Shown here: one piece after another, positions 5,337-22,373 of the stretch
Position numbering within the stretch: position 1 is the stretch's first letter
Layout of the letters: each line of letters opens with the position of its first letter
The notes under the pieces: model-generated
What the model saw: only the letters and a program-made list of their open reading frames with translations
Told to the model about the DNA's origin: nothing
Databases searched by the model: none
Made by a program: the position numbers and the translations under genes
Virus record (IMG/VR): IMGVR_UViG_3300044797_000129
Span: 1 to 22,373 of that record
DNA from: a virus
Length of the DNA stretch: 22,373 bases
Direction: 5' to 3' (one strand)

Positions 5337-6734
5337 ATGCTGGACTACCAAGAATTCATTCGCGGAAAGAGAATCTATGTCGAGGATCGAGGTATTGACG
5401 GCCCGTGTTCTTCCATGAATCAGGCGATGAAAGAATTTCAATCTGAGTCGACGAGATACGTCCTCAAAAAAGGGCGTGGCGCGTTGTTTTTCGCTCCCGG
5501 ATTAGGAAAGACGATCTGTCAATTGGAGTGGGCGAAGCACGTCATCCAAAATGCGAACGGAAATGTACTCGGATTATGCCCATTGGCCGTCGCCCCGCAA
5601 ACCGACCGGGAGTTTCATAGATTCGGAATTGGAGGTGGGCGGTTTCCGATCAAGATCTGCGAATCACAGGACGATGTTGGATTCGATCAGGGAATTGTCC
5701 TGACAAACTACGAAAAGCTACACAAGTTCGATTCGTCGAAATTCGTCGGCGTCTTCGGAGATGAGTTAAGTTGCATCAAGAGCTACACAGGCAAGCTGAA
5801 GCGGCAAATGTGTTCATCATTCGCTGAAACTCCGTTCAAGCTCTCCTGTACGGCGACTCCCGCTCCAAACGACGTCCTGGAATTAGGCCAACAAGCGGAA
5901 TTTCTTGGCGTCATGCGATCAAACGAGATGATCAGTCGATGGTTCATCAACGATTCAATGCAGGCTGGAAAATACCGGCTCAGAAATCACGCCAGGGAAG
6001 ATTATTGGGACTGGGTATCATCATGGGCGGTCAGCATCGAAATGCCGTCCGATCTCGGCTATTCGGACGAGGGATATATCTTGCCTCCGATCCAAATTAT
6101 CGAGCACGAGATTGAATTCGAATCGGAGCCCGACGATGGGCGTCTGTTTGGCAATGCAACGATCAATGCGACGTCAATCCATCGCGAAAAGAGGCAATCA
6201 AACGCCGCGAGGGCGGAAGAAGTCGCGGGCCTCGTCAACGGCAACTCCGAGAAATGGATCGTCTGGTGCGATACCGATTACGAGTCGGACGAATTGAAGC
6301 GGCGAATTCGCGATGCCGTCGAGGTGAAGGGGTCGCATCCGGAACAAAAGAAGATCCGCGACATCGACGCATTCTCGACCGGACAGTCGCGGGTCATCAT
6401 CACCAAGCCGTCGATCTGCGGATTCGGACTCAATTGGTTTCATTGCCACAACGTCGCATTCGCGGGGGTGTCATATTCGTTTGAACAATTCTATCAAGCG
6501 TTGTGCCGAGTCTATCGATTTGGTCAGGTTCATCCCGTCAACATTCACGTCTGCTTCTCGCCGATCGAGCGTGCGATATGGAACGTCGTGAAGAGCAAGG
6601 AGTTGGAGCATCGGACGATGAAGCGGTCCATGAGCGCCGCGATGCGTGCCTCTCAAATGGAAAAAGTACGCGGGACACTGCGATTATCGACGTCTTCCGG
6701 ATCGAGGAAAATGGAGCTTCCATCATGGATTTGA
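5337..6734 (+). CDS. SNF2-like superfamily 2 DNA helicase/translocase
   Basis: A 465-aa ATPase of the SF2/SNF2 type common in phages. Motif I is APGLGKT (53-59), motif II is GDELSCIKS (141-149) with Asp142-Glu143, motif III is SCTATPAPND (170-179), and motif VI is QALCRVYRFGQ (387-397) with its arginine fingers. The product probably moves along DNA using ATP. The N-terminus MLDYQEFIRGKR matches the '(M)xYxEFLxxK' opening I know from related phage helicases, so I chose ATG 5337; GTG 5319 adds six residues. Neither start has a strong ribosome site. The last 10 bases overlap the methyltransferase gene. In related phages these two activities are neighbours or fused, which suggests joint action on DNA, such as modification or counter-restriction. 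Confidence 0.85.
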   Translation: MLDYQEFIRGKRIYVEDRGIDGPCSSMNQAMKEFQSESTRYVLKKGRGALFFAPGLGKTICQLEWAKHVIQNANGNVLGLCPLAVAPQTDREFHRFGIGGGRFPIKICESQDDVGFDQGIVLTNYEKLHKFDSSKFVGVFGDELSCIKSYTGKLKRQMCSSFAETPFKLSCTATPAPNDVLELGQQAEFLGVMRSNEMISRWFINDSMQAGKYRLRNHAREDYWDWVSSWAVSIEMPSDLGYSDEGYILPPIQIIEHEIEFESEPDDGRLFGNATINATSIHREKRQSNAARAEEVAGLVNGNSEKWIVWCDTDYESDELKRRIRDAVEVKGSHPEQKKIRDIDAFSTGQSRVIITKPSICGFGLNWFHCHNVAFAGVSYSFEQFYQALCRVYRFGQVHPVNIHVCFSPIERAIWNVVKSKELEHRTMKRSMSAAMRASQMEKVRGTLRLSTSSGSRKMELPSWI

Positions 6735-7834
6735 ACGCGATGTGCATTCATCAGGAAAATGGGAAGGACTTTTCGCTTTATCGCGGCGATGCGTGCGAGG
6801 TCATCAAAGGAATTCCGGATGAATCGATCGGCTTCACGATTTACTCTCCGCCGTTTTGTTCACTGTACATTTACTCCAGTTCAGAAGCGGACATGGGGAA
6901 TTGTTCGTCGATGGAAGAGTTCATTGAGCATTATAAATACCTGATTCGCGAGCAATTGCGAGTGACGATTCCAGGGCGGTTGTGTGCAATCCACGTCAAA
7001 GATTTGCCGCTCTATATGAATCGGGATGGAGCGGCGGGATTGATCGATTTTCCAGGAGAATGTATTCGGGCGTTCACGGCATGCGGCTGGACCTATCATT
7101 CACGTGTGACGATCTGGAAATGTCCAGTGACCGAGAGGGAACGCACGAACAATCACGGACTGCTGCACAAAACAATCCGGAAGGACTCGTCCGGCTGTCG
7201 CCAAGGAATGGCGGATTATTTAATTGTGTTTCGCAAAAACGCCGGAGACACGATGGTCAGCGACGTGCCAGTGCATCCAGATGGGTGTGACGGAGAGTTG
7301 GAACTGGAAGTCGATGAAGACGGCGAAGCAACTGGCAATGTTCAGTCGTCTGAGAAAAGCGTTGGCCTGAGACGTTATGTCGGCGATGAACAATTCAATC
7401 CATTGAAAAGCGATTTTCATCCATCGCCATACGCGAGAACTGGGAGGCCGAGCGAGGACGCGGGCGGAAACATGGACGCGGTTCGGGCCTCGATCACGAT
7501 CTGGCGTCGTTACGCGGAACCAGTCTGGTGGGATATTGATCAAACCGATGTCCTGAACTACAAGCCGGGGCGTTCCGAGGAAGACGAGCGTCACATTTGT
7601 CCACTCCAAATGGGAGTCATTGAGAGGGCGGTGCATCTCTGGTCAAATGAAGGCGAGATCGTTTTCACACCGTTCGCGGGAATCGGCTCTGAGCTTGTGG
7701 GGGCGATTCGGCAAAAGCGAAAAGCGATTGGAATCGAACTGAAGGAATCGTATTTCAGTACGGCCATTCATAATCTACGGATCGAAGAGAGAAAGCTGAA
7801 CGCTCCGAGACTTCCTGGGTTCGAGGACTTATGA
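6725..7834 (+). CDS. DNA N4-cytosine/N6-adenine methyltransferase (permuted, beta-type order)
   Basis: A 369-aa amino-methyltransferase. The catalytic motif IV is SPPF (41-44), preceded by the FSLYRGDACEVIKGIPDESI stretch. The SAM-binding motif I, FTPFAGIGSE (314-323), comes at the C-terminal end, followed by AIGIEL, the usual acidic strand. Motif IV before motif I is the beta-class order. SPPF is compatible with N4-cytosine or N6-adenine methylation; the target sequence cannot be read from the protein. A conserved LLHKTIRKDSSGCRQGMADY block lies in the middle. ATG 6725 has GGAG 8 bases upstream and overlaps the helicase end by 10 bases; the frame is open upstream to 6503, but that part is helicase sequence. 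It probably protects phage DNA from restriction or marks it for replication. Confidence 0.88.
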   Translation: MDLNAMCIHQENGKDFSLYRGDACEVIKGIPDESIGFTIYSPPFCSLYIYSSSEADMGNCSSMEEFIEHYKYLIREQLRVTIPGRLCAIHVKDLPLYMNRDGAAGLIDFPGECIRAFTACGWTYHSRVTIWKCPVTERERTNNHGLLHKTIRKDSSGCRQGMADYLIVFRKNAGDTMVSDVPVHPDGCDGELELEVDEDGEATGNVQSSEKSVGLRRYVGDEQFNPLKSDFHPSPYARTGRPSEDAGGNMDAVRASITIWRRYAEPVWWDIDQTDVLNYKPGRSEEDERHICPLQMGVIERAVHLWSNEGEIVFTPFAGIGSELVGAIRQKRKAIGIELKESYFSTAIHNLRIEERKLNAPRLPGFEDL

Positions 7835-12582: not shown

Positions 12583-13044
12583 ATGACTCACAAGAGAAAC
12601 GCTCTGATCTTCGGCGGCCTGGCTCTCGTATTCATCATCGCATATCTCGCGATTCACGGAATGACTCTCGGGCCTGCAATCGCACGGGGAACGGGTCCTG
12701 GTGGAGTGCAAGTCACGGGACAAGGATGGCTAGCGCTGGCGATCTCGGCCATCGGAGCGAGCGGGTTGTCTGTGGCAACGGTCGTGGAAGCGATACGAGC
12801 GATGATCGTCGCCGCGTGTCCACCAAGCGCCCAGGGCCAACAAAGTTCGACAGCGAAAGCGTTGCTAGCCGCAGTGGACCTTGCGGAAATGCCGCTCTAC
12901 GCGAAAATTTACAATCAAACAACAGATCCAATAGTCAAAGTAGCACTGAGGCAGACGGCAAAATTAGCGAACGACAGCAACTTCGAAAAACAATTCCCGG
13001 TTCTATCGAGTCCGTCGCCGCTCGTGCCGACCGCTACGGCGTGA
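12583..13044 (+). CDS. Membrane protein with two predicted TM helices
   Basis: A 153-aa protein from ATG 12583. The first hydrophobic segment (about 7-26, ALIFGGLALVFIIAYLAIHG) is a TM helix or signal anchor, the second lies at about 48-68 (GWLALAISAIGASGLSVATV). The remainder is a soluble Ala-rich helical domain ending Ser/Pro-rich. The frame is open upstream to 12307, but that part overlaps the previous gene. Two membrane spans and a soluble tail would fit a small holin-like or anchoring protein; nothing specific is recognised. Confidence 0.65.
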   Translation: MTHKRNALIFGGLALVFIIAYLAIHGMTLGPAIARGTGPGGVQVTGQGWLALAISAIGASGLSVATVVEAIRAMIVAACPPSAQGQQSSTAKALLAAVDLAEMPLYAKIYNQTTDPIVKVALRQTAKLANDSNFEKQFPVLSSPSPLVPTATA

Positions 13045-13107
13045 CATTTCTGCCGTGCGATCAAGAGACTGTTGAACAGATCAAGAAATTCTGCCAGAGA
13101 CGCCAGT

Positions 13108-13509
13108 ATGCTGAAATCAAGAAGATTTATCGCAGTCTTTCTGGTCATTGCGGTCGGCTGTCAATTCACGGTTCCAGTCAATCCGAACATCGGACCAACG
13201 CCTCTCGTCGTTGAGCATCCTCCGGCGCCTGAGGTCTGGACAACGCTTGCTCAGTACGTCGAATGCGGAATCATCGCAACGCCCCAAATGATTGAGCGGT
13301 ATGTGAAAATTCTGGTTGACAACGGCGACTTGACGGCCGGTGAGGCATCGAAAATCGATTCGGCATTTCCAAAAGCGTCCACCGACACGAGCGACTTGAA
13401 CGCGAAAGAGGCTGGGGCGAAACTAAGAAAACTGGCGACAGGGCAGGCCAACACTCGAAGCGAATCGCAGATCAAAGTCGCGAGGGCAGCGCCACGAGCA
13501 ATCCCCTAA
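13108..13509 (+). CDS. Putative lipoprotein
   Basis: A 133-aa protein with a short basic N-terminus (MLKSRRF), a hydrophobic core and a lipobox-like IAVGC ending at Cys18. The mature part begins Pro-rich and is then helical and charged. I chose ATG 13108 because it places the signal at the very start; the frame also has ATG 13072, which would add 12 residues and spoil the signal. The lipobox is not perfect (Val at -2), so the lipid attachment is probable, not certain. It would sit on the outer face of the inner membrane or in the outer membrane. Confidence 0.6.
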   Translation: MLKSRRFIAVFLVIAVGCQFTVPVNPNIGPTPLVVEHPPAPEVWTTLAQYVECGIIATPQMIERYVKILVDNGDLTAGEASKIDSAFPKASTDTSDLNAKEAGAKLRKLATGQANTRSESQIKVARAAPRAIP

Positions 13510-13883: not shown

Positions 13884-15332
13884 ATGCCAATCCCAAATTT
13901 CGTCGCCGGTTGGATCAGCGACCCAGCAAGAGTCCAGGAATCGATCCAGGCCCGCGAGGAACGCGGCCAAGCGGTCATGGGAGCAAACTTCGTCGCGACG
14001 AACACGCCGCAACTTGCCGGGTCATGGAAGCGATTTGTCGCATCTGGCGGAACGGGAGTGTTTCTTCGGGATCGAGAGAAGCATCTGCTTGGCGGCCACT
14101 ATCGCAGGCCGTATTTCCAAAAAGCGGGAACGTGTCATCCGTCTCGAACAAGAATAGCAATGGCGGACAAATCGACGAAAAACATCGAGGACGTGAAAAT
14201 CGGCGACGAAGTCCTGTCGCATAATTTCGAAGCACGAAAAGTTCTTGACGTCGGATCGCGGGACTACGGCGGCATCCTGGTCACATTGGCGTTGAGGCAT
14301 TCGGACCAAAGAACGAGGCTTACCGCCGATCATCCAGTTGCTGTTTTCGGAAGCGAAGACGGCGGCGGCGTTCGCATCTTAACGAGGCTCCAATGGGTTT
14401 CCGCGATGCGGATGATGCCGCTCTATCGCGTTCTCGGATCGTGGGGAAAAATGGCGACGGTGGATTCTGTCGAGAAGCGATCTTTCGAGGGAAAAGTATA
14501 CAGCCTGGAAGTCGAAGAAGAACACAGCTATTTCGCCGACGGAATCGCGGTTCACAACTGCGTCAGTCGCGGAATGACGAGGGCTGCTCAGGTCAGTCTT
14601 GACGTCTCGATCGTCGACAACGTTTCGCTTCAAAAGCCAGTCGAACTGACGTTCGCTCCGGTCTATTCGATGGCACGCCACGAGATCGGAAAAGACCGGT
14701 GCGGCTACGGAGACGGAGCGATTCTGGCCGACGCGGCGGAAGCGATTCATGAACTTGGAATCGCGGTCCTGTCAGATTTGTTTCCCGGTCTGACGGAAGT
14801 TCAAGTCGAGCAACTCGCGGTCAAATACGCCGCGCCGGGCGTCGGCACTCCGAAAGCATGGATGCAAGCCGCTGCCGGGCACACGGCCGTCACATTCTTT
14901 CCAGATTCATTGGACCTGATTTTTGACTGTCTGACGCAAGGCTACGCCGTGGCCTACGCGAATGGCTACATCACTGGCCAACCGAATGCGAAAGGAATTT
15001 CCGGGCCAGGTTCAGCGGGCGGCCACTGTCGATTCTTCAGCGGCGTGTTCCTCGACGAAAACGGTGATACTCAACTGGAATCGTCCGAATCCTGGGGCGA
15101 GTTCCCAGCGGGAAATCCGAGCGATGCGGATTACACGATGTCGATCGACCGGATGCCGACGATCCAATTGCATTATGCGGGCGGAGTGAAATCACTGTGC
15201 CCCGGATGCGTTGGCGTGAACGCGAAGCAGTTCTGGAATTTGATTCAGTCGGGCGGAGAGGCTTGGGCAGTCGGACCAGCTAAGTTCGATGCCGATTCAT
15301 TCTCCGACATCACAAGTCAACTGGGATCGTAA
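13884..15332 (+). CDS. Papain-like cysteine-peptidase protein interrupted by a mini-intein
   Basis: The precursor is 482 aa. Residues 84-225 form an intein (separate entry); joining 1-83 to 226-482 gives a 340-aa host protein reading ...QKAGT-CVSRG.... In that product the junction Cys (Cys226 of the precursor) sits where papain-like enzymes have their nucleophile. Downstream are DGAILADAAEAIHELGIAVL (278-297), GGHCRFFSGVF (379-389) with candidate His381, and ESWG (402-405), matching the usual NSWG position with Glu for Asn. So the intein would block the active site until it splices. No signal peptide is seen. The altered Asn position leaves catalysis uncertain. The gene begins one base after the previous stop and ends one base before a 28-aa membrane peptide, so all four genes are probably co-translated. 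Confidence 0.8.
   Translation: MPIPNFVAGWISDPARVQESIQAREERGQAVMGANFVATNTPQLAGSWKRFVASGGTGVFLRDREKHLLGGHYRRPYFQKAGTCHPSRTRIAMADKSTKNIEDVKIGDEVLSHNFEARKVLDVGSRDYGGILVTLALRHSDQRTRLTADHPVAVFGSEDGGGVRILTRLQWVSAMRMMPLYRVLGSWGKMATVDSVEKRSFEGKVYSLEVEEEHSYFADGIAVHNCVSRGMTRAAQVSLDVSIVDNVSLQKPVELTFAPVYSMARHEIGKDRCGYGDGAILADAAEAIHELGIAVLSDLFPGLTEVQVEQLAVKYAAPGVGTPKAWMQAAAGHTAVTFFPDSLDLIFDCLTQGYAVAYANGYITGQPNAKGISGPGSAGGHCRFFSGVFLDENGDTQLESSESWGEFPAGNPSDADYTMSIDRMPTIQLHYAGGVKSLCPGCVGVNAKQFWNLIQSGGEAWAVGPAKFDADSFSDITSQLGS
14133..14558 (+). other. Mini-intein (Hint domain, no homing endonuclease)
   Basis: These 142 residues (84-225 of the precursor) show the intein blocks. Block A is Cys84 followed by RIAMADKSTKNIEDVKIGDE. 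Block B is RLTADHPVAVF (145-155) with Thr147 and His150. Block F is KVYSLEVEEEHSYFADG (204-220). Block G is AVHN (222-225), followed by Cys226 as the +1 nucleophile. His224-Asn225 is the usual splice-end pair. The length fits a mini-intein and leaves no room for a homing endonuclease. Cys84 is the only cysteine within the intein. The insertion point, immediately before a conserved active-site residue, is typical of inteins. Confidence 0.85.
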
Positions 15333-15423: not shown

Positions 15424-16776
15424 ATGAATTACGGGCCATCTGGATTCGAAACCTATGGTAGTTCAGCAGTCATCATTAAAAGCGTGAAGTTGATCTATCC
15501 GAAAACTGACGTCGATCGTCGACGACGAGCCAAACTACTGCTCCTGATCATCGCGATCCTGGCCTTCATTGGCGCATGGTGCGAAGCCGGAACGCCTCAC
15601 GAAAAAGCGTTGGCGGCAATGTCAGTCGCACGAGCGAGATTGCAAGTCGCGGATGACAAGGCTGTTCTGCCAGATTCATCGAATCGATTCAGCACCGTTC
15701 CGGAAACGGTGCCCCCGCGACAAGAATCGCCTGTTCCAAATCCAGCGCAAGAGGTTCCGGTCGCCGAGTCGGCACCAGTCTATCGTCCATTGGAAGCGAG
15801 ATTCGAGCCGTTCGCGCCGATTCAATCAAGCGGTCAGAGAAAGCTGAAAGCTTATTTCTACACCGGCGAAAGAGCCTACGGAAAAGGCTGGTGTGTCAAC
15901 TGTCCAGAAGCCAAGCGGACATTTCGAAGCAATGACGATCTCGACGTGATTTGGAGCGATGACAAAGCGAACGGTCCGCAGCAATATCCAGCGGCTCGAT
16001 TCTTTGGTCCCGATGGAATCGAATACATGCCATCGGATGCGGCCAAAAATTACACCAGACCGACTTCAATGGATGGTCTTGCGTCCTACATGAGACGGTA
16101 CGGCATGGGGTCGGACCATGAATCCTATTCCGCATCGGGACCGGCGGGCACGTTCCATGCTTCCGACAAAATCGACCAGGTCAAAGCCTACATGCGAAGA
16201 TATGTCGGCGAAGGAAATGAAGTCGCGGTCATCTGGAATCACAGCGAAGGCAAACTGAATCTCCTGGCGGCGAAAGACTGGGAACCGAAAGACTTGATCG
16301 GCACAAACGGAAGGCTGGAAGTGGACATCCCGAAGGCGATCGGATTGCCAGTGAAGTCGATGGCCGTCAACTATCGGATTATCGGTCGCGGAATGCAGTT
16401 GGCGGCCGAGCCGTTCACCGTTGACGGCTTGCTGGACAATCTCAAGCCACAACAGGCAAGCTTCGGCGCTCAGCCTGTCGGATTTTTCGTTTTGGACGAC
16501 ATGCTGGAGATTTATTGGATTGTGAGTATGTTTCACGATCTGTTCGCCGTTTTGCATCCGTCGGCTGATCTGATTCTGCCCGATGAAATCTCCCTGAACG
16601 CGGTCCTGAACGGCGAAACGATCACTGTCAAATGTGACAAGCCTCCCTCTGTGTGCTTGAAGTGGTTGTTCACATTTAGCCTTGCGATCAAAACCGTCAC
16701 GATTACAAATTCGAATATCCATGTGGAGTTTAGCGGAAGCCGGTGGATTAAATCACGGGATTTCGCCGTTCAATGA
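15424..16776 (+). CDS. Membrane-anchored thioredoxin-like protein
   Basis: A 450-aa protein. A basic stretch (DRRRRAK, 31-37) precedes one TM helix (about 38-51), so the rest probably lies outside the cytoplasm by the positive-inside rule. After a Pro-rich linker (about 90-125) comes a thioredoxin-like domain (about 138-230): strand LKAYFYTG, then KGWCVNCPEAK with the redox pair Cys157/Cys160, then QQYPAARFFGPDG with Pro189 in the cis-Pro place. The larger C-terminal region (about 235-450) is beta-rich and unrecognised. The role may be disulfide exchange on an envelope or virion protein. It follows the 28-aa peptide by three bases. Confidence 0.7.
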   Translation: MNYGPSGFETYGSSAVIIKSVKLIYPKTDVDRRRRAKLLLLIIAILAFIGAWCEAGTPHEKALAAMSVARARLQVADDKAVLPDSSNRFSTVPETVPPRQESPVPNPAQEVPVAESAPVYRPLEARFEPFAPIQSSGQRKLKAYFYTGERAYGKGWCVNCPEAKRTFRSNDDLDVIWSDDKANGPQQYPAARFFGPDGIEYMPSDAAKNYTRPTSMDGLASYMRRYGMGSDHESYSASGPAGTFHASDKIDQVKAYMRRYVGEGNEVAVIWNHSEGKLNLLAAKDWEPKDLIGTNGRLEVDIPKAIGLPVKSMAVNYRIIGRGMQLAAEPFTVDGLLDNLKPQQASFGAQPVGFFVLDDMLEIYWIVSMFHDLFAVLHPSADLILPDEISLNAVLNGETITVKCDKPPSVCLKWLFTFSLAIKTVTITNSNIHVEFSGSRWIKSRDFAVQ

Positions 16777-18018: not shown

Positions 18019-21000
18019 ATGACGGGCATCTTCGCTCCCGCCTCTTTTAATAATGGGGCCGACGTCACGTTTCCGACGACTATTGGCTCGCTCGGCCAAT
18101 CGATCGTGTCTGGAGGTGACGGAACTTCGTCATGGGGGTCTTCATCAAGCTCGTTTAGCGGACTCGCGAGCGGAACAAACACATCTGCGGCGATGGTTGT
18201 TGGATCTGGCGCATCCATTTCGGCCACTGGAAGCGGCTCAATTGCCGCCACTACGTGTCCAGCGGGCGGAATCACGGGAGTTCTTGGCGTCACGTATGGA
18301 GGGACCGGCGCAAACCTGTCTTCGACCGGAGGCACGAGTCAGGTCCTGAAGCAAACATCGAGCGGCGGAAATATCACGGTCGGCCAACTAGCCTACGCGG
18401 ACATCTCTGGACTCGGTACGCTCGCCGAGCAGAATTCGGGCTCCATCAACGTCACGGGAGGATCGATTACAGGGCTTTCAGCGGCCATAAATCCAAGCGA
18501 CGTCACGATTCTTTCGCAGGTCCAGAGCCTGATTGCGACAGGAATTCACAGCTATCTCGAAGTCGAGGCGCTGTTCAATTCGAATGTGGCGATCGGTTCG
18601 CCGGGGAGCTTGACGGACGGGTCGTATACCATTGTCGCGACAAATCGCATTCTGTTGATCAATCAAACGGCCGCCAGCCAGAATGGACCGTGGATCTACA
18701 ATAGTTCATCAACGCCGATGACGCGGCCCATAGATTACACGCATGGCTCTACGCAAACAGCCGGTCTGGTCTATCTCATTACTGAAACAGGCTCAGCATA
18801 TCAGGGCTATCAATATGTACTGAACACGGCGACTGTGACCGTCGACACCACGTCAACATCATGGGGAGTTTTCAGCGGTCCCTATTCCGGCAGCGGACCG
18901 ATCACAGTTTCCGGCCAAGTTATCTCGCTTGGGACAGTCGGCATCCCAAATGGCGGGACCGGACTCGGGACATTGGCCGCTCACGCTGTGATGCTTGGTG
19001 AAGGAACCGGCAATGTCGGATTCGCGACGATCGGCACGGCGGGCAGATTGTTAATCGACCAGGGTTCCGGTGCCGATCCGTCCTTCAACGCGATGTCGGG
19101 CGATGCGACGATAGCGAGCGACGGGGCGGTTACGGTCGTGTCCACGAACGGCAACGATTTCACGTCAGCCAGCTATACGGCGATCGGCACGAGCGGCGCG
19201 ACGATTCCTCTCTGCGCTGGGACCAACACGTTCAGCGGCGATACGACGTTTTCCGCAAACGCCGCCGCGTCCGCGCCGTCGGTGGCGTTTACCGGCTCGT
19301 TCAACGTAATTAATAATGGATCAACAAACGTCCCCGCAATTCTGTTGCAACCGTCCGGCACATCGGCCGTGACGTCGTGGGGATACAATTCCTATCTCGG
19401 CACCTACAACAATTGGACGTCGATTGGAGTCAATGGCCCGAGTGGAAATGGGTTTTTTGTAGACTTCCATCAAAACGGCGGCGGATCGATATTCAGCGTC
19501 AACAGTGGTGGAGCAATCTATTCTGCGTCAAGCGTCACTGTGACGTCGACCGGCCAGGCGTCCCTCGGGAACATTCAAACCACACAAGCGCCATATAGCG
19601 CTGGGACTTCGACGACGTGCTTTCCACAATGGTTCGCGAACTTCGGCGGCACGGCCGTTACGAATTGGAGCAACGGAACGAATGGCGGAACAGTGTGGGG
19701 CGGCAACGCGACTGGGTCCTGGACCGGAAACTGGTTTGACCTGCATTGCTCATCGAATACGTCGGTGTTTCTTGTCAATTACGCCGGAGCATTGACGACG
19801 GCCGGTGCGGTGACGATGTCGAATTACGGGTCAGGGATCGCGACCTTTAGTTCGGCAGGGCTGATTAGTTCAACGGGGACAACAGGGTCGGGGAACGTCG
19901 TGCTTGCGACGTCGGCGACGCTTGTCACACCCGCTCTCGGAACACCCGCATCAGGCGTGTTAACAAATTGCACCGGCACGGCATCTGGACTGACGGCGGG
20001 AGTGGTATCAACGATTTCCGGCCTGGTCTCAGCAGGGTCGAATATCACAATCAGCGGGTCAGGCACGTCGTCGAGCCCTTACACGATCACAGCGTCTGCC
20101 GCGTCATCGCTCGCGTTCAGCGCATTGACGGGCGCGACGAACACGACGGCGGCGATGGTTGTCGGGAGCGGCGCGAGCCTGACGACGAGCGGCTCGGGAA
20201 CGATCACGGCGACAGCATGTCCGGCGTCGGGGATGACAGGCGCAACGCTCGCTTCCGGCGTGACGGCGTCATCGCTGACCAGCGTCGGCACATTGACGAG
20301 TCTCGCGTGCGCGGGGGCCATCACAGATACACAATCCATCGGAGTGACTTCGACAGACGGCCTTCTACTAACCTTCGCGTCTGGAACTCCGGCCACAGTC
20401 AGCCTCAATCAATGGTCGTCACGGCTGCATTTTTCCGGCAGTGGCTGGAAAACCGCATCAACCGCCGGCGCACAGACGGTGGACGTCGTTCAGGAACTTC
20501 AAACTGTCACCGGGACTTCAAATCCAAGCGGCAATTGGGTCTTATCAGCCCAGGTCAACGCGGGCGGTTATTCACCGATCTTGACGGTTTCCACGGGGGG
20601 TGCGGCCACATTCGCTGGTAATGTGACGATATCCACCTTTAACCTCGTCACTGACACTTCGACAGGTACCAAGATCGGCACGTCGACGAGCCAGAAGCTT
20701 GGTTTCTTTAACGCGACGCCGGTCGTTCAACAGACCGGTGACGCGACAACGGCACTGTCAAATCTGGGCCTCGTGACATCAGCGACATTCGCAGCAGCGT
20801 CTATCACGGGAACGACGCTCGCCTCAAGCGTCGTCGCATCTTCATTGACGTCCGTTGGAACTCTAACAAGCCTTGCATGCAGCGGTGATGTGGCATTCAC
20901 AGGGGCCGGAGCGGCGTCAACATCTCAACTCATGATCAACGGCACGTGGTATATATCAGGTACGTCGAGCACGAATTATCCCGCGCTCTACGTTAAAGCG

Positions 21001-22373
21001 AGCGGAGTTTCCGATCCAAACTTCAGCACAAGCGGCGAATCCCTAGTTGTTAATGCGCCAACAAGTTTCGGGGGGAACTTACTGAATTTGTGTATCGCGG
21101 GAACATCCAAATTCAGCATTTCGTCAGGCGGCGGCCTGACGTGCGTAAACGTCGCATCTTCTGGAAAGATTTCAAGCTCCTCTGTTCCGGGTGCATCAAC
21201 CTCCGTATTCACGACGACGGGAGCCCCGTATGCGGCGGGGAGCGGCACAACGAACTTCCCCCAATGGTTCGCAAATTGGGGCGGAACGGCAGTAACTAAT
21301 TGGTCAAACGGCACAAATAATGGGACGGTGTGGGGTATCAACGCCGCGAGCACTTTTACAGGAAACTATTTCGATTTTCACAATTCCTCGAACACATCCA
21401 CGTTCACATTAACGTCCTCTGGCAACGTCACCGCTGGTACATGGCAGGCCGCGCTGATCACAGGAACTTATGGAGGAACGGGGGTCAACAACGGGTCGAA
21501 CACGATCACAATTGGCGGCAATGTCACGATGTCGGGGGCGTACACGTTTGCCGGTACGTTAACTAATACAACAGCAGTCACGTTTCCGACGAGCGGCACG
21601 CTGGTGAATACGGCTGTAACAGCTCTGTCTTCGTTGGTTTCCGTCGGTACGATAACGACTGGAGCATGGAACGCTGGGGCCGTTACAAGTAGCGGCAACA
21701 TTATTTGCGGTTCATCGAGCTATTTCGGGTGGGGCTCGACCTACATGACGAGCCCCACGGCGGCGACGATGCAGTTGGGGCAGGCCGATGCGGCGTCACC
21801 AGTGGCCCAATCGCTTTATTTTCAAAATGTCGTCGCGGGCACTGCGAATACGAGTGCCGCCAACGCCACACTCCAGAACTCGCTAAGCACGGGGACCGGG
21901 ACTGCCGGTACGTTGATCCATACGTCCGGCTTCGCGGGACTCAGTCAGAACGCGACCGTCACGCTGACGATCGCTTCTCCATGCGTCGTGACATACACCG
22001 CACATGGATTTGTGCCGGGGCAGGCGGTTAGCTTCACGACGAGCGGCACACTTCCAACAGGCATTACGGCGAGCGTGACTTATTACGTTCTCGCCACGTC
22101 GCTAGCCGCGAATACATTCCGCTTCTCCGCCACACCGGGCGGTTCGGCGATCAACACGTCCGGGTCTCAATCAGGAACACAAACCTGCACGGCGCTGACA
22201 ACGATTCAAAATCCCGCATCGACGATCGCAACATGGGGACCGAGCGGTCTGACGGGCAGTCAGGCGATATCAGTGCTGTCGCTCGCGCAGACGTGGAATA
22301 CGACCGGCAACGTCAATGGATTGTTGCTGAACGTGACGAATATCGCGTCAGGCGCGTCCAGCAATCTTCTGGC
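18019..22373 (+). CDS. Very long tail-fibre-like protein (3' end beyond window)
   Basis: From ATG 18019 this frame stays open to the last base, at least 1451 codons. The protein is dominated by Ser, Thr, Gly, Ala and Val in short beta-like strands. Recognisable tail-fibre phrases are VTYGGTGANLSSTGGTSQVL near the N-terminus, a YTIVATNRILLINQTAASQN domain (about 180-280), GGTG turns, AVTFPTSGTLV near the C-terminal part and a FVPGQAVSFTTSGTLPTGIT domain (about 1315-1365). Three pairs of internal repeats are listed separately. Such proteins form trimeric fibres that contact the host surface. Few Lys/Glu/Arg residues and no signal peptide are seen. Other forward and reverse frames here are shadows. 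Confidence 0.85.
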   Translation, partial: MTGIFAPASFNNGADVTFPTTIGSLGQSIVSGGDGTSSWGSSSSSFSGLASGTNTSAAMVVGSGASISATGSGSIAATTCPAGGITGVLGVTYGGTGANLSSTGGTSQVLKQTSSGGNITVGQLAYADISGLGTLAEQNSGSINVTGGSITGLSAAINPSDVTILSQVQSLIATGIHSYLEVEALFNSNVAIGSPGSLTDGSYTIVATNRILLINQTAASQNGPWIYNSSSTPMTRPIDYTHGSTQTAGLVYLITETGSAYQGYQYVLNTATVTVDTTSTSWGVFSGPYSGSGPITVSGQVISLGTVGIPNGGTGLGTLAAHAVMLGEGTGNVGFATIGTAGRLLIDQGSGADPSFNAMSGDATIASDGAVTVVSTNGNDFTSASYTAIGTSGATIPLCAGTNTFSGDTTFSANAAASAPSVAFTGSFNVINNGSTNVPAILLQPSGTSAVTSWGYNSYLGTYNNWTSIGVNGPSGNGFFVDFHQNGGGSIFSVNSGGAIYSASSVTVTSTGQASLGNIQTTQAPYSAGTSTTCFPQWFANFGGTAVTNWSNGTNGGTVWGGNATGSWTGNWFDLHCSSNTSVFLVNYAGALTTAGAVTMSNYGSGIATFSSAGLISSTGTTGSGNVVLATSATLVTPALGTPASGVLTNCTGTASGLTAGVVSTISGLVSAGSNITISGSGTSSSPYTITASAASSLAFSALTGATNTTAAMVVGSGASLTTSGSGTITATACPASGMTGATLASGVTASSLTSVGTLTSLACAGAITDTQSIGVTSTDGLLLTFASGTPATVSLNQWSSRLHFSGSGWKTASTAGAQTVDVVQELQTVTGTSNPSGNWVLSAQVNAGGYSPILTVSTGGAATFAGNVTISTFNLVTDTSTGTKIGTSTSQKLGFFNATPVVQQTGDATTALSNLGLVTSATFAAASITGTTLASSVVASSLTSVGTLTSLACSGDVAFTGAGAASTSQLMINGTWYISGTSSTNYPALYVKASGVSDPNFSTSGESLVVNAPTSFGGNLLNLCIAGTSKFSISSGGGLTCVNVASSGKISSSSVPGASTSVFTTTGAPYAAGSGTTNFPQWFANWGGTAVTNWSNGTNNGTVWGINAASTFTGNYFDFHNSSNTSTFTLTSSGNVTAGTWQAALITGTYGGTGVNNGSNTITIGGNVTMSGAYTFAGTLTNTTAVTFPTSGTLVNTAVTALSSLVSVGTITTGAWNAGAVTSSGNIICGSSSYFGWGSTYMTSPTAATMQLGQADAASPVAQSLYFQNVVAGTANTSAANATLQNSLSTGTGTAGTLIHTSGFAGLSQNATVTLTIASPCVVTYTAHGFVPGQAVSFTTSGTLPTGITASVTYYVLATSLAANTFRFSATPGGSAINTSGSQSGTQTCTALTTIQNPASTIATWGPSGLTGSQAISVLSLAQTWNTTGNVNGLLLNVTNIASGASSNLL
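18154..18279 (+). repeat. Internal protein repeat A, copy 1 (42 aa)
   Basis: Encodes FSGLASGTNTSAAMVVGSGA followed by SISATGSGSIAATTCPAGGI and TG. It aligns without gaps to 20116-20241. The two copies differ at many synonymous and some non-synonymous positions, so the duplication is old. Confidence 0.8.
19591..19770 (+). repeat. Internal protein repeat B, copy 1 (60 aa)
   Basis: Contains FPQWFANFGGTAVTNWSNGT and a GTVWG turn, then NWFDLHCSSNTSVF. It aligns without gaps to 21226-21405, with an unusual aromatic content (Trp, Phe, Tyr) for this fibre. Confidence 0.8.
20116..20241 (+). repeat. Internal protein repeat A, copy 2 (42 aa)
   Basis: Encodes FSALTGATNTTAAMVVGSGA and continues SLTTSGSGTITATACPASGM. 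Exactly the same length as copy 1 at 18154-18279. Confidence 0.8.
20245..20310 (+). repeat. Internal protein repeat C, copy 1 (22 aa)
   Basis: Encodes TLASGVTASSLTSVGTLTSL and AC, the 'SLTSVGTLTSL' phrase frequent in phage fibres. It matches 20815-20880 in length and nearly all residues. Confidence 0.8.
20815..20880 (+). repeat. Internal protein repeat C, copy 2 (22 aa)
   Basis: Encodes TLASSVVASSLTSVGTLTSL and AC. The DNA differs from copy 1 at many third positions while the protein is almost the same, so the repeat is kept at protein level. Confidence 0.8.
21226..21405 (+). repeat. Internal protein repeat B, copy 2 (60 aa)
   Basis: Contains FPQWFANWGGTAVTNWSNGT, GTVWG and NYFDFHNSSNTSTF. 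Same length as copy 1 at 19591-19770, 1.6 kb apart. Confidence 0.8.

Follow-up and report, generated by a model that had tools for sequence, protein, structure and literature searches.

Does an intein that lies immediately before the putative catalytic cysteine of a phage protein act as a switch for that protein, or is it a passenger? The question is raised by an open reading frame at 13884-15332 (+), open throughout its 482 codons, in a 22.4-kb linear virus record from IMG/VR. The sequence is a single metagenomic record, and its whole length (22,373 nucleotides) is termed the window here. Its gene content includes ERF and YqaJ recombination genes, a RuvC-like gene, a beta clamp, a helicase, and a DNA methylase, with a late-looking cassette after the replication and recombination genes. 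The original prediction, made from the sequence, placed a mini-intein exactly before the nucleophile of a papain-like protein and proposed that splicing would switch the protein on. On the sequence evidence described below, the frame very likely encodes a papain-like (clan CA type) phage cysteine peptidase that carries a class 1-type mini-intein before its catalytic cysteine as a constitutively spliced passenger. The features of the locus are collected in Table 1.

Table 1. Features of the intein-containing gene and its neighbors in the window.
Feature	Position	Strand	Basis
Small membrane protein (GPGGVQVTGQGWLAL...), counterpart upstream of relatives	12583..13044	+	ORF list, neighbor families, by eye
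Small lipoprotein-like gene, signal sequence ending VGC, counterparts upstream of relatives	13072..13509	+	ORF lists, neighbor maps
N-extein, residues 1-83	13884..14132	+	Alignments with intein-free relatives
Gln79 in N-extein, papain oxyanion glutamine position	14118-14120	+	Same alignments
Class 1-type mini-intein, residues 84-225 (142 aa), without endonuclease domain	14133..14558	+	TIGR01443 above cut-off, tblastn, direct reading
Intein Cys1 (TGT)	14133-14135	+	Read directly
TADH, intein residues 64-67	14322-14333	+	Read directly
Intein C-terminal splicing block VYSLEVEEEHSYFADGIAVHN	14496-14558, His-Asn at 14553-14558	+	Read directly
Cys226 (TGC), +1 splicing residue and aligned papain-fold catalytic cysteine; Cys84 once spliced	14559..14561	+	Invariant in viral and prokaryotic alignments
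C-extein including stop, residues 226-482, papain-like catalytic domain	14559..15332	+	Homologues, Peptidase_C1 in relatives, structure match of a relative
His381, aligned catalytic histidine	15024..15026	+	Invariant in alignments
Glu402-Ser-Trp-Gly where papain has Asn-Ser-Trp-Gly; Glu specific to the clade of the window	15087..15098	+	Alignments, counts
Secreted or anchored protein with WCxxC thioredoxin-like stretch	15424..16776	+	Neighbor clusters F1, N1

Identity of the Intein

The insert is an intein, and the predicted coordinates were retained without change. The NCBIfam model TIGR01443 (intein_Cterm) scores 33.4 bits against the whole protein and 35.6 bits against the insert alone, above its curated cut-off of 15.6 bits. 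The Pfam models Intein_splicing (2.8e-7), Hom_end_hint, and PT-HINT match the ends of the insert, all below their own curated cut-offs. In a tblastn search of GenBank phages, residues 84-226 or 84-227 align to inserts carried by Vibrio phage helicases (E ~1e-7) and to an insert in the portal protein of an Eggerthella phage, and the end points of these matches agree with the predicted boundaries. The predicted splicing blocks can all be read in 14133-14561, where the class 1 residue set of Cys1, TxxH, penultimate His, Asn, and Cys at +1 is complete. The window contains the C-terminal intein motif a single time, and none of 100 shuffled sequences contains it.

With only 142 amino acids, the insert is a mini-intein without an endonuclease; it has no Pfam match to an endonuclease domain and no room for one. 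Its G+C content is 53%, compared with 57-59% for the exteins and 53% for the window. In a structure model of the precursor the intein region has a pLDDT of about 27, and intein rows are absent from the underlying alignment. This region of the model is unreliable and says nothing for or against a Hint fold.

Splice Junction and Intein-Free Relatives

Removal of the insert yields a sequence that is continuous with those of intein-free proteins. The spliced sequence retrieves a relative that lacks the intein, encoded in a Planctomycetota genome (E 5e-24), and a two-row alignment retrieves further relatives in the same bacterial family. These relatives read FQRRGT-CASR or LQRAGT-CVSRGM at the junction, without a gap. 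Viral contigs L050, L051, and L052, which are 57-63% identical over the extein, also lack the intein and read GT-CVSRG, and the joined flanking DNA aligns straight across the junction in L036 and L042. Because intein-free relatives run gapless through GT-CVSRG, the splice junction is exact, at the place where the exteins had been expected to join. Several of the prokaryotic copies sit in a conserved neighborhood that also contains genes for the terminase large subunit and the portal, and are therefore prophages or phage remnants.

The viral relatives were recovered only with a 15-row alignment; viral scans with the window protein alone, or with the first two-row alignment, found no relative. 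Intein rows are excluded from the extein alignment since they misaligned when added. Neither the spliced protein nor the catalytic part of L209 has a significant match among 50,697 GenBank phages; L067 has one weak match there, in the 595-kb record of an uncultured phage. The family members tested fall in no PHROG family. As a separate observation on distribution, the papain-like family yields 470 candidate relatives in one IMG/VR scan, yet it is almost absent from the same GenBank phages.

A Papain-Like Host Protein

The assignment of the host protein to the papain fold rests on its relatives, through both their sequences and a model. The window precursor has no match to PF00112 or to any other Pfam peptidase model, and the spliced protein has no family match in PHROG or NCBIfam. 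Pfam Peptidase_C1 matches 19 of 46 viral relatives (best 2.7e-9), and among the columns that do not vary in these 46 sequences are the Gln, Cys, His, and Trp that a papain active site should have. In a 17-sequence alignment, Cys226, His381, and Ser-Trp-Gly 403-405 (window numbering) are invariant and Gln79 is nearly so. The +1 cysteine is thus aligned with the papain nucleophile, with His381 and ESWG downstream, in agreement with the original prediction. Divergent members carry the canonical RNQGxIG[TS]CVSFGTA...DNSWG, one relative aligns weakly with a plant papain-type protease at the Cys (GSC in the plant protein), His, and NSWG, and the listed matches of the family profile to the PDB are papain-family proteins.

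The fold of the window protein is reached through a model of L050, a 63%-identical relative (pLDDT 90.7). This model superposes on xylellain (3ois) with a Z of 20.3 and an rmsd of 3.1 over 235 aligned residues, followed by procathepsins and papain. A long helix (82-102) begins at the Cys, and His 236 lies within the strand 230-245 of the core, as expected for papain. L050 shares its fold and the positions of Cys, His, and Gln with xylellain and the C1 family, although identity to xylellain is 17% in the structural alignment. In contrast to papain-family C1 enzymes, the clade of the window has Glu for Asn, is phage-encoded, and has no signal peptide evident by eye. Among about 175 sequences, with close copies counted, the first position of NSWG is N in 118, E in 26, and Q in 18; the Asn is absent from the window clade. 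Since ESWG replaces NSWG there, the protein is called a papain-like relative rather than a canonical C1 member, and peptidase activity is predicted.

A second gene in the window, at 1915-2907, looks papain-like by eye (LGDCGEAM ... GHFTPV ... TWGSW); it has no family-model match, and its BLAST comparison with the spliced intein host is not significant. In L133, L167, and L203, about 195-298 residues precede the papain-like domain within the open frame, and those of L133 and L167 have no Pfam match.

Recurrence of Inteins at Catalytic Residues

The position before the papain-type cysteine is a recurrent intein site. The whole IMG/VR collection was scanned with a pattern in which the intein C-terminal end is joined to CVxxxG, a context so fixed that the frequency of inteins elsewhere cannot be read from the scan. 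Ten records were found, of which eight match the papain-like family profile. Three of these (L207, L210, and L211) encode an identical protein, leaving six distinct family members besides the window with an intein at the same site (L207, L208, L209, L212, L214, and L215). L216 has no family-profile match; it reads DQGHEGA|C...N|CVGFG...NSWG and is papain-like by eye. Seven distinct inserts beyond that of the window therefore directly precede a papain-type cysteine, which makes the site a recurrent one. Mini-inteins occupy it in the window (142 aa), L208 (148 aa), L214 (150 aa), and L212 (182 aa). At 351-379 aa, the inteins of L207, L209, L215, and L216 could accommodate an endonuclease.

Occupancy is sporadic, as is usual for inteins, because no same-site intein was seen among 80 members retrieved with a query that leaves out the cysteine. 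The C-terminal intein pattern is also absent from 392 Planctomycetota genomes. A different catalytic residue is occupied in the family member L111:5800-7848, in which a 371-aa intein (6505-7617) lies directly after the catalytic histidine, with junctions PH|CFPPG...VHN|CMLF where close relatives have PHCMLF.

Two of the scanned records have further features of note. The partial record L213 (1050 bases) has an intein C-terminal end followed by CVWAGAAHES..., possibly from a papain-like phage protein. In the 608-aa open frame of L216 (reverse strand, around 1549-1580), no obvious catalytic histidine motif is found between the cysteine and NSWG.

Origin of the Inteins

In a tree of the splicing domains, the window pairs with L208 and L212 pairs with L215; L209, L214, and L216 form a third group, and the deeper forks are unresolved. 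Forcing the same-site inteins together fits worse by 16.5 log units with a p-AU of 0.083, a value that does not decide between one origin and several. The splicing domain that scores highest against that of the window intein belongs to a LAGLIDADG intein within the PrkA kinase of the viral contig L112. The two share KNIEDVKIGDEV and TADHPVAV stretches; unlike the window intein, that of L112 carries a homing endonuclease and resides in an unrelated host protein. The L112 intein (L112:3104-6364) splits the AAA domain of the PrkA serine kinase.

Proposed Mechanism

In class 1 splicing, the +1 residue is the nucleophile of transthioesterification, and its thiol is free at the end. In the window protein, intein Cys1 (residue 84) would attack the bond following Thr83, and Cys226 would take the N-extein through transthioesterification. 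Asn225 would then cyclize with the help of His224, and an S-to-N shift would form the Thr-Cys peptide bond. The freed thiol of Cys226 would then become the peptidase nucleophile alongside His381 and the oxyanion position of Gln79, so that the peptidase would be complete only once the intein has excised itself. The unspliced precursor is probably inactive because 142 extra residues part Gln79 from the nucleophile, as was also expected in the original prediction. One thiol would thus serve two chemistries, with the residue of the splicing step being the residue needed for enzyme catalysis.

Constitutive splicing is the most economical view of this arrangement, with the intein as a passenger at a recurrent target. 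Imprecise loss of the intein would destroy the enzyme, and inteins can therefore persist at such a site without a regulatory role. The main rival is a maintained post-translational switch, in which slow or conditional splicing (governed by redox, timing, or metal) would delay the peptidase to late infection in the manner of a zymogen. The identity of the +1 splicing nucleophile with the aligned catalytic nucleophile, the intein at the catalytic histidine of L111, and the endonuclease-less mini-inteins in four sequences (window, L208, L212, and L214) would suit a switch, and conditional splicing has been reported for other inteins (PMC10663303). However, nearly all members lack an intein at this site (0 of the 80 retrieved without spanning it), and a switch is therefore not required. 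Native inteins lie on average 8.3 Å from active-site residues, compared with 21.1 Å for other Cys/Ser/Thr sites (PMC3359363), and mycobacteriophage inteins also occupy active centers, in terminase, RecB-like, and TOPRIM proteins (PMC5050341). Active-site placement is general among inteins and needs no regulation, so placement alone is no argument for it. The same two studies, with the seven other occupied sequences, call for a revision of the description of the placement as unusual. The constitutive passenger fits at least as well, and the switch is considered unlikely. The broader proposal that inteins at phage papain-like catalytic residues (ahead of the Cys in eight distinct sequences and behind the His in one) are selectively kept as an autocatalytic zymogen system appears similarly doubtful. 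If it were true, the splicing nucleophile would become the protease nucleophile, and splicing rate or redox state would time peptidase activity in infection.

Other readings depart further from a spliced, active peptidase. The host may be a papain-fold protein without peptidase activity, with a role in structure or binding or with a different thiol chemistry. The Glu in place of the papain Asn and the lack of any family model that names the window protein fit such a role, which is nevertheless improbable in view of a Cys, His, and oxyanion Gln that vary little or not at all even among very divergent phages and an NSWG retained in most relatives. It is still less probable that the Hint domain cleaves without ligating, as in bacterial intein-like or pretoxin-Hint domains, and releases two pieces. 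PT-HINT does score about 4.6 bits below Intein_splicing on the insert; however, the insert has Cys1, TxxH, His-Asn, and the +1 Cys, and the continuous form in intein-free relatives is a complete papain-like chain. An assembly chimera or sequencing artefact that inserted a Hint domain could be imagined for one metagenomic virus record, yet the insert is in-frame with exact splice sites, its G+C is similar to that of its surroundings, and the same arrangement recurs in other viral records, with one protein identical in three. An artefact is thus extremely improbable.

Relation to Known Systems

The passenger intein of the window appears to use ordinary intein chemistry. It resembles the class 1 inteins of phages, such as those of Vibrio phage helicases and of mycobacteriophages, in its Hint domain, Cys1, His-Asn-Cys ends, and location in a conserved active-site motif. 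It differs from them in having a papain-like peptidase host, in which the +1 residue is the aligned catalytic nucleophile. No papain-like, C1, or cysteine protease with an intein was found in the open-access literature searched, and within that literature the host type and the recurrent site are new. Proteins of uncultured Caudovirales annotated as "Peptidase_C1" in BFVD (e.g., A0A6J5TCZ4) match the L050 model in structure at about 14% identity, and their listed descriptions mention no intein. The map of inteins gains a host type, the papain-like peptidases of uncultured phages, along with a recurrent insertion site. Since empty, mini-intein, and long alleles of one site exist, the question of passenger versus switch is testable with natural pairs.

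Genomic Neighborhood

The genes around the intein host are shared with its relatives. The product of 13072..13509 resembles a gene of L051 by eye (APEVWTTLAQYVECGIIATPQ / ASDVWEVMAQYVENKIITTPK), and 15424..16776, whose product has no Pfam match, is homologous to the gene after the papain-like gene of relatives. A few genes separate the cassette from terminase in the prophages, a region in which lysis genes are often located. PHROG matches to holin and spanin near the cassette are weak. A late peptidase directed at lysis or the envelope is plausible. The original prediction spoke of an envelope-type cassette; a cassette conserved beside phage genes is indeed present, and the label "envelope-type" is supported in part. 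At the end of the window, a long open frame without a PHROG match (18019-22373, 1451 aa) is rich in Gly, Ser, and Thr, runs off the end of the record, and is tail-fiber-like by composition.
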